Below, piece after piece: positions 32,263-35,879 of a DNA stretch of 36,664 bases. Source of the stretch: Akkermansia muciniphila (GTDB lineage: Bacteria > Verrucomicrobiota > Verrucomicrobiia > Verrucomicrobiales > Akkermansiaceae); the NCBI GenBank assembly GCA_945901795.1, contig CAMDLP010000031.1, forward strand, positions 1 through 36,664, read 5' to 3'. Position numbers and translations under genes: made by a program. The notes beneath the pieces are model-generated. The model saw only the letters and a program-made list of their open reading frames with translations. It was not told where the DNA came from and did not search any database. How positions within the stretch are numbered: position 1 is the stretch's first letter; the number at the start of each line of letters is the position of its first letter.

Positions 32263-32788
32263 TCACGGAGAAGGCCACGCTGAACTGAGGGTGAAGGTGT
32301 AGCGGTTCGAGCCGAGATTGATGAGCTTGTCTTCGAGGTATTCGCCGGTGGGAAGTTGTATGACCAGACCCGCGCCGACGATGGTTTCGCAGGTGGCGAC
32401 GTTTTTCCGGTAGTCGAGAAACTCCTGTCCCGCGAGCGGCGGCGCACCGAAGAGGTTCACTGCGAAACGCCGCACACTATCCGCCCAGCCATCGCGATCG
32501 GTGCTGGCGGGAACGCCATTCAGCAAGCCGCTCCAGGTGCCGCTTTGATAGAGCTGGAGAAAATCGAAGCGGGCGGACTTTCCCAGGACTTCGAAGGAGT
32601 GGGTGTATTTGGCGGCGGCGATCGAATTCGCCGTCCTCGATCTTCAGCACCGGGTTGAGGGAAATCTCGCCGAAGGAATAGGGGTAGGCGCTCCAGCGGC
32701 GCGGCTCGATGTCCTACGCGAAGCATGGCAGCGCGGCCGATCCGATGACGAGCGCGGCGATCTTCGGAATGATGCTGTTGGCCGACAT
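32263..32788 (-). pseudogene. Broken outer-membrane transporter-like gene (5' part only)
   Basis: An ATG at 32788 gives a clean signal peptide (MSANSIIPKIAALVIGSAAL, then PCFA) followed at once by an in-frame TAG. The same frame then reads DIEPRRWSAYPYSFGEISLN and PVLKIEDGEFD, a match to the MetA-pathway-of-phenol-degradation barrel family (PF13557). Near 32628 the sequence shifts frame and continues as AAAKYTHSFEVLGKSARFDF ... PPLAGQEFLDYRKNVATCET ... TGEYLEDKLINLGSNRYTF. It then ends in unrelated TLSSAWPSP. The 3' half of the gene is missing. Three independent lesions make it a clear pseudogene. It starts only 18 bp from the mod start on the other strand. Confidence 0.8.
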
Positions 32789-32805
32789 GTTGTGGTTTAC
32801 GAAAG

Positions 32806-35289
32806 GTGATGAAATGTGTTCCGGCTGTCTCAGCCGCAACAAATTCCTCCCGCCTCATCCTCAACTTCGCCCACCTCCCCATCGGCAAAGCCGAAAAACA
32901 AAGCGTCCTCAACGAATCCGCCGCCGCCACGATTCTAGCGGAACATGCAAAAGGCTCGTTCACCGGCCTGGCCGCCAACGATCCCACCTACACCGGCAAG
33001 CAAAAGGGCGGCCGCAGCATCCTCGCCAAGCACCTCGGTGAATACACCGGCAAGAACTCCTTCGACTACTTCATCCACAAGGACCTCGGCGGCTTCCTCC
33101 GCCGCGAACTGGATTTTTTCATCAAGAACGAAGTCGTCCATCTCGACGACCTCGATGACGCGCCGGAATCCAACTGGAAGGAAACCCGCGCCAAGATCAA
33201 AGCCCTCCGCACCATCTCCGCAAAAGTCATCCGCTTCCTTGCCCAGATCGAAAACTTCCAGAAGAAACTCTGGCTCAAGAAGAAGTTCGTCACTGCCTGC
33301 GACTACGTCGTCACCCTCGACCGCATCCCGGAAGAACTCTATCCGGAAATCGCCGCGTGTGATGCGCAGCGGGAAGAGTGGGTGAGGTTGTTTGCAATTG
33401 ATGAGATCAAGGGCGATCTTGGGAGGGCGGGATACTCGGTCCCCCTCAAGGTGGATTTTTTGAAAGAGAATCAAGGGCTTGTTGTCGATACTAGATTGAT
33501 GAATCAAAAAGTTAGAATCTCCATCTGCGAATGTTTGAGGCGTAAACCTGAACCTTCAGCGCAGAATCTACTGCTCTGGGCGGACAATTTTCACGGGATA
33601 AAGCACCTCAGCAATTGGGGTGCTGGACGGATGAGTTGCATTTACATTGACCCTCCATACAACACCGATGCGTCTCCTATTATATATAAGAACGGATACA
33701 AAAAGTCATCTTGGCAATCATTAATGGCTGATCGCCTCGTTGCTGCAAAGCCACTTCTCTCGGAACTCGGAACACTTGCTGTTGCTATCGATGATGAGCA
33801 ACAAAAAGAACTCGGATTTCTAATTCGAGATGTGTTTCTGGGGGTGGAGTTGGGCACCATTATTGTTCGAGCAAATCCATCTGGACGGCCAATGCAGACA
33901 GGATACTCTATTTCGCATGAATATGTGATTTTTACCGGTGGATCCTCCAAGGCAACCATTGCACGGATGCCACCAACTGTTGAGCAAATAGCGCGATTTA
34001 ACCAGCAGGATGATGTGGGGAATTTTGAATGGCGTAATCTAAGAAGAGAAGGTTCTAATTCAGATAGAACTGCTCGCCCATTTCTATATTACCCAATTTA
34101 TCTAAACGGTGATGCCATTCGTGTGCCGGCAATGGTGTGGGATCGATCCAAACATACTTGGACGGTAATGGATAAACCGAAGTCAACAGAAGAAGTTGTT
34201 TGGCCAACAAATGAGAATGGCGAAGAAAAGACCTGGCGATGGGGTCACGAGACCGTTACGGAATCACTCACTACGTTGCGTGTTAGGCCTGATCGATCAG
34301 GAAAAAACTATGTGTATTACAAGCGTCGCCCAAACGAAGCCGGTGTAGTTTGTATTTCATCGTGGATGGATGCGAAGTATTCTGCAACTGAACATGGCTC
34401 AGCGTTGCTAAAACGACTATTTAACAAGAATCCTTTCGATTATCCAAAGTCAATTCATGCGGTAAAGGACTCCATTTTTGTAGGTGGTGCATGGATGCCA
34501 AATGCTACCGTCCTCGACTTCTTCGCCGGCTCCGGCACCACCGGTCACGCCGTCATCAATCTCAACCGCGAGGACGGCGGTGACCGCAAATACATCCTCA
34601 TCGAGATGGGCGAGCATTTCGACACGGTGCTCGTCCCCCGTTTGAAGAAGGTGATCTACTCGAAGGATTGGAAGGACGGCAAACCGCAGAGCCGGAACAC
34701 CGGGATTTCCCACTGCTTCAAAATCCTGCGTCTCGAAAGCTACGAGGACACGCTGAACAACCTCCGCCTGCACCGCACCCGCGAGCAGGAGCTGGCGTTG
34801 GAGAAATTTTCGCCGGAAGCCCGCGAGGACTATCAGCTCGGCTACATGCTCGATCTGGAAGCAAGCGGCAGCCAGAGCCTGCTCAACGTTTCCGCTTTTA
34901 CCGATCCATTCGACTACACCCTGCAAATCGCCACCGGCACCGCCGGTGAGACCAAGCCCACCCAGGTCGATCTCGTCGAAACCTTCAACTGGCTGCTCGG
35001 CCTCATCGTCCTCGCCCAAGGCCGGGGTGGCGGTGTCACCTGGGTGGAAGGCACGAATCCCGAAGGCGAAAAAGTCCTCGTCCTCTGGCGCAACACCACG
35101 GCCGTCGATGCCGAGGCGCTGAATGCCTGGTGCAAAAAACAGAAGATCAGCGTGCTCGATGGCGAGTTCGCCGTGATCTACGTCAACGGCGACCACCATT
35201 TGGAAAACCTCCGCAAGGACGACCAGACCTGGAAAGTCCGCCTCACCGACGAGGAGTTCCCCAAGCTGATGTGGGAGGGCTGCAAATGA
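32806..35289 (+). CDS. mod: Type III DNA methyltransferase (Mod), apparently N-terminally truncated
   Basis: An 827-aa beta-class N6-adenine methyltransferase. The catalytic IDPPYNTD (Asp282) precedes the SAM-binding DFFAGSGTTGHAV (571-583). This order is that of type III Mod subunits, which methylate one strand and give sequence specificity to Res. The block EYTGKNSFDYFIHKDLGGFL, RRELDFFIKNE...HLDDLD (about residues 84-120) is shared by a large Mod-like family that I recall as having further sequence on its N-terminal side. The first 15 or so residues do not look like it. G+C falls in the middle (about 33380-34500) and recovers afterwards, so the gene is a mosaic. Start is GTG 32806 or ATG 32809; GAAAGG overlaps them. 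Confidence 0.85.
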   Translation: MMKCVPAVSAATNSSRLILNFAHLPIGKAEKQSVLNESAAATILAEHAKGSFTGLAANDPTYTGKQKGGRSILAKHLGEYTGKNSFDYFIHKDLGGFLRRELDFFIKNEVVHLDDLDDAPESNWKETRAKIKALRTISAKVIRFLAQIENFQKKLWLKKKFVTACDYVVTLDRIPEELYPEIAACDAQREEWVRLFAIDEIKGDLGRAGYSVPLKVDFLKENQGLVVDTRLMNQKVRISICECLRRKPEPSAQNLLLWADNFHGIKHLSNWGAGRMSCIYIDPPYNTDASPIIYKNGYKKSSWQSLMADRLVAAKPLLSELGTLAVAIDDEQQKELGFLIRDVFLGVELGTIIVRANPSGRPMQTGYSISHEYVIFTGGSSKATIARMPPTVEQIARFNQQDDVGNFEWRNLRREGSNSDRTARPFLYYPIYLNGDAIRVPAMVWDRSKHTWTVMDKPKSTEEVVWPTNENGEEKTWRWGHETVTESLTTLRVRPDRSGKNYVYYKRRPNEAGVVCISSWMDAKYSATEHGSALLKRLFNKNPFDYPKSIHAVKDSIFVGGAWMPNATVLDFFAGSGTTGHAVINLNREDGGDRKYILIEMGEHFDTVLVPRLKKVIYSKDWKDGKPQSRNTGISHCFKILRLESYEDTLNNLRLHRTREQELALEKFSPEAREDYQLGYMLDLEASGSQSLLNVSAFTDPFDYTLQIATGTAGETKPTQVDLVETFNWLLGLIVLAQGRGGGVTWVEGTNPEGEKVLVLWRNTTAVDAEALNAWCKKQKISVLDGEFAVIYVNGDHHLENLRKDDQTWKVRLTDEEFPKLMWEGCK

Positions 35290-35298
35290 GCACCAATC

Positions 35299-35327
35299 TT
35301 GACAATTTGCGCATATTCGAGCACTTT
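35299..35327 (+). promoter_or_regulatory. Possible promoter of the RelB/PemK-type pair
   Basis: TTGACA at 35299-35304, then 17 bases, then CACTTT (35322-35327, a weak -10). The direct repeats TTCGAGCA and TTTGAGCA lie just before the ATG at 35333 and could bind the antitoxin. The pair can therefore be transcribed independently of mod. Confidence 0.4.
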
Positions 35328-35332
35328 TGAGC

Positions 35333-35566
35333 ATGGCTACTGAAACTACCTCTCTTTTCCGAGTGCGCGTTCCCGCAGAACGTTTGCACAATGCGGAGCA
35401 AATTCTCGCCAGGCTTGGAATGAAGCCTGGTGATGCCTTCAACATGTTGCTGGCTCAGATCGAACTCCGGGAAGGCCTGCCCTTCGAGGTGACCACCCGG
35501 CCACCGGGATTGATCGCGCCAGAAACCCAAGCCGCCGAATGGCAGGAGGCGTTCGGTGCCTACTGA
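35333..35566 (+). CDS. RelB/DinJ-type antitoxin
   Basis: A 77-aa protein. The N-terminal segment TETTSLFRVRVPAERLHNAEQ and the block LARLGMKPGDAFNMLLAQIE are the RelB/DinJ ribbon-helix-helix pattern. The C-terminus (PPGLIAPETQAAEWQEAFGA) would wrap the toxin. The ATG at 35333 gives the usual N-terminus; an upstream TTG start is unlikely. Its stop overlaps the toxin start by 11 bp. It lies 43 bp after mod, inside the restriction-modification locus. Confidence 0.85.
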   Translation: MATETTSLFRVRVPAERLHNAEQILARLGMKPGDAFNMLLAQIELREGLPFEVTTRPPGLIAPETQAAEWQEAFGAY

Positions 35567-35879
35567 ACCGAAGCCGGGCGAAGTATGGTTCGCCGAACTG
35601 GGGATGGTGGAGAAAAGCCGACCGGTTCTGGTTCTGGCGTTTCCCGACAACGAGGATGCCCGTGCGCTTGCCGTGGTGGCACCGCTTACCTCCCAAATCC
35701 GAGGCATGAGAGGCGAGGTGGATCTCGGTAAACCGCGTTGGCTTCCCAAGCACTCCGCAGTGAACGTGCAAGGGCTTGCCAGCTTGGATCATCGCAAACT
35801 GACACGAAGACTGGGTGAGCTCAGTCTCGCCCAAATGGAAGATATCAAAGCCGCGCTCAGGGATTTGCTGAATCTGTGA
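35556..35879 (+). CDS. PemK/MazF-type toxin
   Basis: A 107-aa protein of the CcdB/PemK fold. It starts PKPGEVWFAELGMVEKSRPV, then LVLAFPDNEDARALAVVAPL with TSQIRGMRG following; EVWF and the KSRPVLVL strand are the hallmark of mRNA interferases. Conserved C-terminal segments are SAVNVQGLASLDHRKLTRRL and the last helix. It starts with GTG at 35556 within the antitoxin gene. Pairing a PemK/MazF-type toxin with a RelB/DinJ-type antitoxin is known in mixed toxin-antitoxin pairs. res starts 13 bp after it. Confidence 0.88.
   Translation: MPTEPKPGEVWFAELGMVEKSRPVLVLAFPDNEDARALAVVAPLTSQIRGMRGEVDLGKPRWLPKHSAVNVQGLASLDHRKLTRRLGELSLAQMEDIKAALRDLLNL

Follow-up and report, generated by a model that had tools for sequence, protein, structure and literature searches.

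The type III mod gene near the end of the window (the whole 36,664-nucleotide stretch of Akkermansia muciniphila DNA analyzed here) raises the question of whether its AT-rich central part was brought in by a domain swap and, if so, what its composition says about the timing of that event. The predicted Mod protein (W) gave a PADLOC MTase_III match of 1.8e-157, with the profile aligned from position 241 of 1057, and its motif order (DPPY, target recognition domain (TRD), motif X, FxGxG) fits a type III Mod, a beta-class amino-methyltransferase. Type III Mods methylate one strand of an asymmetric site.

The AT-rich block proved to be real. The G/C counts given in the preliminary description for four 60-base lines (34, 22, 26, and 35) are exact, and GC is 0.443 in 33454-34506 compared with 0.573 and 0.601 in the flanking parts of the gene. 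The lowest-GC 1053-bp stretch of the window begins at 33455 (0.443), and the lowest such stretch not touching the block has a value of 0.548. Two-breakpoint segmentation of third-position GC (GC3) yielded 0.38 inside the block and 0.80 outside, with a gain of 75 (60 shuffles reached 8.9 at most), and placed the edges at 33454 and 34506 (33448-33469 and 34492-34513 within 2 log-likelihood units). Edges had been proposed at 33380 and 34500; the right one stands, but the left one lies ∼70 bp further right. As described earlier, DPPY falls inside the block and FxGxG just outside it. A shift in codon use toward AAT, AAA, and TTA had also been reported, of which only the first was recovered: AAT is enriched (13 of 351 codons inside, 4 of 476 outside), but AAA (9 of 351 versus 16 of 476) and TTA (1 versus 0) are not.

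Comparison with relatives revealed that the best match changes sharply at both edges of the block. The closest scaffold relative, L001, appears to be from G289, a genome that belongs to the family of the window genome, and a second, L101, is from genome G058, which shares its order. Amino acid identity between W and L001 is 0.849 in the N-terminal part, 0.238 in the middle (aa 277-567), and 0.888 in the C-terminal part, and the DNA matches to both relatives stop and restart at the edges (Table 1). In 30-residue windows, L001 was best or joint best in nearly all flank windows, with 0-40% identity inside the block. In trees, the flanks united W and L001 with a support of 100, whereas for the middle W fell into a clade with 8 members (99.9), together with Mods from Hymenobacter, Luteimonas, Marinobacter, and further gammaproteobacteria. 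AU tests, performed on 27 of 78 rows picked after larger trees had been viewed, rejected the middle's W clade for the flanks (p-AU 5.2e-50) and the W-L001 grouping for the middle (p-AU 0.024), the latter value being moderate and L001 a long branch there. The mosaic structure, its edges, and the conflicting ancestry of flanks and block, as well as the like exchange in relatives described below, are thus borne out, and the swap suspected from the letters alone with them. The TRD does lie within the exchanged unit, as had been supposed, but this unit is wider, beginning before DPPY and ending after motif X.

Table 1. Positions of features in and around the window mod gene; L001 and L101 are the two scaffold relatives introduced in the text
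Feature	Position	Strand	Basis or remark
Type III mod gene (W)	32806..35289	+	827 codons, GTG start
REP-like short interspersed repeat copy at truncated 5' end of mod	32817..32837	-	
Left crossover zone	33448..33480	+	GC3 edge 33448-33469; DNA match stops at 33480 (L001), 33470 (L101)
AT-rich exchanged cassette, aa 217-567	33454..34506	+	GC3 segmentation, identity profiles, trees
Motif IV, DPPY, aa 282-285	33649..33660	+	Sequence and profile alignment
TRD proper (approximate), ∼aa 394-512	33985..34341	+	EcoP15I TRD aa 263-384 transferred by hand via profile alignment
Motif X, YPKS, aa 546-549	34441..34452	+	Aligned with EcoP15I N416-K418
Right crossover zone, immediately 5' of motif I	34492..34522	+	GC3 edge 34492-34513; match restarts at 34522 (L001), 34506 (L101)
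Motif I, FAGSG, aa 573-577, belongs to scaffold	34522..34536	+	Sequence
RelB-like antitoxin gene in the mod-res gap	35333..35566	+	Pfam RelB 1e-5
PemK/MazF-like toxin gene	35556..35879	+	Pfam PemK_toxin 8.4e-14
Start of res, cut by contig end	35892..36664	+	PADLOC REase_III 4.5e-49

The nearest relative of the block that was found, in genome G231 of the same class, is 64% identical. Donor searches gave best-ranked matches of 39.3% in plasmids and 30.7% in phages and no matches in viral contigs, and a search for a close relative of aa 217-276 found none (best 32%). Taken together, W is very probably a mosaic of a verrucomicrobial scaffold and a 351-codon cassette from another lineage, joined via recombination between alleles. 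Exchange of the recognition part is of a kind already known in type III Mods.

Relatives of W behave in the same way. The best 80 of 481 were retained; the set of 78 homologues used for GC was drawn up without L021, L067, and L064 (near-duplicates) and L082 (C-terminal end in another frame), and for distances, trees, and conservation classes L083 was also removed and W added (78 rows). On these rows, distances in the N- and C-terminal flanks correlated with each other (0.81), as did those in the two halves of the middle (0.86), whereas values between middle and flanks were 0.06 on the N-terminal side (Mantel p 0.09) and 0.12 on the C-terminal side (p 0.001). Along the gene, coupling to the middle increased in the 20-residue window at aa 276-295 and disappeared in that at aa 566-585. 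A Bacteroidota set (n = 18) gave 0.82 between the flanks and 0.10 (N) and 0.28 (C) between flanks and middle. It draws on loci L123-L136, where ORFs were obtained in 11 of 14; L123 was dropped as a duplicate of L039, and the identical L126 and L027 were both kept. One Bacteroidota pair, L135 and L136, has identities of 0.99, 0.25, and 0.98 in the N-terminal part, middle, and C-terminal part, respectively.

Alleles of Escherichia coli, a species in which 156 of 5426 genomes have a match to one such mod in its N-terminal part, extend this pattern. The middles of NCTC86 and STEC1575 are alike (99-100%), and three other alleles are 97-99% identical to NCTC86 in the flanks but 27-46% in the middles, with another middle common to L140 and L144 (L141, annotated as frameshifted, was left out). 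Crossovers in E. coli are nearer to the gene ends than those of W, at W-equivalent aa ∼155 and 691-701, and these places, too, are well conserved. The modA-like pattern, in which related organisms have similar flanks and dissimilar middles, is therefore present in the relatives of W, and from these sequences cassette exchange appears habitual in its Mod family.

That the composition of the block had not yet been equalized was earlier taken to mean that the swap is recent, and this argument failed. A dip, defined as middle GC3 below both flanks, is present in 73 of the 78 homologues (from the best 80 of 481), with means of 0.63, 0.42, and 0.61 along the gene, and in 12 of 13 more distant Mods, one of which has just 15 C-side codons (a motif filter found a Mod in 13 of the 17 loci L084-L100). 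It is confined to third positions (GC12 0.440 versus 0.437 in the 78 homologues). At the 74 loci with enough neighboring ORFs, GC3 was 0.574 in neighbors, 0.623 in flanks, and 0.425 in middles. In contrast, 107 other ORFs of ≥600 aa from the same loci had a mean central dip of −0.01, which rules out position within the gene as the cause, and 66 of 77 Mods exceeded the 95% point of these controls (11 did not). Conservation was likewise rejected as the cause, with flanks at 0.60-0.61 and middles at 0.39-0.43 GC3 in each of four conservation classes (averages excluding W); within the middle, GC3 and conservation are weakly correlated (rho 0.18). Because the dip is general among homologues and the controls have none, it marks the cassette and not the time since exchange, and composition is ruled out as a clock. 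In the open-access full-text literature searched, such a dip was found reported for one allele (PMC3311624), which does not prove the family-wide pattern unpublished. For segmentally variable genes in general, PMC387263 reports (data not shown) equal GC in variable and conserved regions, with biased codon use.

The low GC3 itself may be explained in several ways. The reading tentatively favored here is that cassettes circulate in an AT-rich pool and adjust partially to the host. Middle GC3 follows the host in part (r = 0.78 over the 78 homologues, from the best 80 of 481), and L040 and L044, which have a cassette in common (91%), differ in GC3 (0.75 versus 0.34) in line with their flanks (0.81 versus 0.48). 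Bacteroidota middles have GC3 values of 0.21-0.31 between flanks of 0.49-0.81, and these low values persist where the silent sites of common cassettes differ by 0.64-0.69, by estimate near saturation. Against an AT-rich pool, silent changes in the middle were nearly balanced, with 93 toward G/C and 85 toward A/T by parsimony in three close triples (the only ones used of 33). Likelihood tests of equilibrium on three close independent triples gave p values of 0.80, 0.12, and 0.002, the last favoring a separate equilibrium for the middle. Seven further triples, distant or overlapping, were not relied on; a shared equilibrium was rejected in two of these (p 0.0001, in a triple with two rows in common with the third close triple, and p 0.0005, an extreme fit) and not in the other five. 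By these tests, an equilibrium of the cassettes' own is about as well supported as the AT-rich pool.

It is conceivable, if somewhat doubtful, that low GC3 is kept by a factor of the cassettes' own, whatever their origin, with weaker codon selection, less GC-biased conversion (unrelated middles would rarely recombine), or a translational role as candidates. The restriction of the dip to third positions, the near balance of silent changes, and the triple with p 0.002 are in keeping with such a factor, whereas the other two close triples and the tracking of the host argue against it, and middles with GC3 of 0.75-0.85 (L069, L072, and L040) mean that there is no fixed ceiling. That the swap is nevertheless recent and the block AT-rich because it is still unadapted to a GC-rich host is unlikely. 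Only 1 of 78 homologues has a larger dip than W (0.417), the flanks of W would predict a middle GC3 of 0.56 where 0.38 is observed (z −1.8), and cassettes can adapt, as in L040 and L044. However, the dip is common to nearly all of the Mods compared, Bacteroidota middles stay low even at large silent differences, and the nearest block relative is as distant as noted above.

Silent sites place a limit on the date. At four-fold sites, W and L001 differ by 35% in the N-terminal flank (43 sites) and 40% in the C-terminal flank (67 sites), so that one or both of their cassettes came in after the two had split, and the only date for the swap is a time after the divergence of W from L001. Elsewhere in the family, silent sites make the cassette younger than the flanks in L023/L061 (0.09 versus 0.36 and 0.31) and older in L033/L034 (0.64 versus 0.52 and 0.39).

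Two readings that dispense with exchange have very little in their favor. Fast divergence of the middle in place under diversifying selection is highly improbable, for although variation is expected in a part that touches DNA, close relatives of the middle occur in other phyla and the flanks do not cluster with them, distances in the middle show no relation to those in the flanks across the 78 rows, and E. coli alleles drop abruptly from 98-99% to <50%. An assembly chimera in this metagenome bin, suggested by its 120 contigs and by the truncation of W at a repeat, can hardly be credited given that the reading frame is open across both block edges, that these edges coincide with those seen against the independent genome of L101, and that the family has the same architecture.

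A model of W built from 40 aligned sequences had a mean pLDDT of 84.1 and a pTM of 0.76, with residues 63-67 and 287-299 below 50. Foldseek against the PDB placed EcoP15I Mod (4zcf), together with 6k0w, on top (E 5.7e-21), with other Mod structures among the first matches, and TM-scores to Mod chains were modest (0.28-0.40 by query, 0.45-0.60 by target). The residues that hold the flipped adenine in EcoP15I are D123-Y126 (motif IV) plus N416 and K418 (motif X), and the TRD spans aa 263-384 (PMC4490356). The W equivalents (aa 282-285, 546-548, and ∼394-512) are inside the block, which thus carries what touches the site, and motif I and the C-terminal region are outside; the EcoP15I counterpart of this C-terminal region makes contact with Res. 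K548 of motif X is invariant across the 40 aligned rows. W shares the motif order of EcoP15I Mod, unlike which it has a further N-terminal region.

In the mechanism that we propose, a resident verrucomicrobial scaffold (the N-terminal region, motif I onward, and the C-terminal region) would have been retained, and the central 351 codons with motif IV, TRD, and motif X would have been exchanged en bloc by two crossovers, one at ∼aa 217-225 and the other immediately ahead of motif I. The crossovers probably made use of short conserved stretches, and the target sequence of W has presumably changed. If EcoP15I is a guide, it is the cassette that would read the site and grip the flipped base, with the scaffold keeping AdoMet binding and Res contact, so that both methylation and restriction would follow a new cassette to its target.

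One of the systems nearest to that of W is the Eco86II/BspHIV group of PMC8259958, in which type III loci carry a helicase-like gene on the 5' side of mod. The NCTC86 Mod (NZ_LT601384.1:5048942-5052064; identified as M.Eco86II from strain and gene order in PMC8259958, not from an accession) is homologous to W, with 33, 30, and 39% identity in the three parts, and a SNF2-type helicase gene precedes mod in L001. Unlike that group, W has an unrelated-looking TRD (∼30%) and a RelB/PemK pair between mod and res. An N4-methylcytosine product is a trait of the Eco86II-type group. In modA of Neisseria and Haemophilus influenzae (PMC3311624), a central recognition domain is swapped en bloc between conserved flanks, as in W, and the modA12 domain has a GC of 28% versus 40%; however, W is of another Mod subfamily, its unit begins before DPPY, and a phase-variation repeat tract sought in the window gene was not found (tandem repeats in 32300-35400 amount to a 2.1-copy heptamer). 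PMC3983042 states that TRDs of type III systems can pass from one gene to another, non-orthologous one, the transfers taking place at conserved-motif codons. The crossovers in the W family likewise lie in or beside such codons and are spread across species, but the exchange is within one Mod subfamily and across phyla.

Type III specificity exchange is thereby documented in environmental bacteria, across phyla, in an Eco86II-like subfamily, and the exchanged unit is outlined, with motif IV, TRD, and motif X traveling together. A GC dip in the recognition domain, which has previously been read as evidence of acquisition, is normal for the Mods examined and gives no date. Tentatively, cassettes may form a cross-phylum pool evolving apart from scaffolds with a low GC3 of its own, in which case a GC3 step would mark the exchangeable unit in raw sequence. 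As the cassette holds all equivalents of the residues gripping the flipped base, exchange could, on the EcoP15I analogy, alter the methylated base (m6A or m4C) besides the target.

W lacks ∼220 N-terminal codons present in relatives (the L001 mod has 994), and its present Mod activity is therefore uncertain. The missing piece, 86% identical to L001 over 220 residues, is on contig C28 of the window genome (G000:C28:27017-27740; L119 and L120), where by eye it adjoins NADH dehydrogenase subunit-like genes. It ends in copies of the REP-like repeat, the window gene starts in one, and the frames match; the repeat occurs at 43 genomic places at ≤2 mismatches (reversed control, 0). Rearrangement or misassembly would both explain the split. 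The SNF2-type helicase gene seen in L001 also lies 5' of the C28 piece, and a helicase-like gene 5' of mod was seen in 43 of 68 relatives with >1.5 kb upstream but not adjacent to the truncated window gene. Just 5' of the mod start codon on C28 is an imperfect heptamer repeat (L119:1460-1492, 4.7 copies, 84% matches) with a possible role in expression. The L101 mod matches in two reading frames, switching at ∼W residue 591-595, and may be frameshifted.

Downstream, the RelB-like gene scored 38.1 bits against NCBIfam RelB_DinJ, under the cut-off of 45.65. The res fragment is 82% identical to L001 res over 255 aa with the helicase part present, and a search of the window genome for a further res piece found none. 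Where the window has the RelB-like/PemK-like pair, L001 carries an AAA-type gene (PADLOC PDC-S01). Close to the res start is a 47-bp segment with two matches in L001. Among L001-L080 (the best 80 of 481, near-duplicates included), the mod-to-res gap is bimodal, at −20 to 255 bp in 42 of 76 loci and 0.7-3.5 kb in the remaining 34, as if this were a favored insertion site. At the other end, a minus-strand frame at ∼32700-32788, with a signal peptide-like start and an early stop as read by eye, abuts the truncated mod and looks like a gene remnant.
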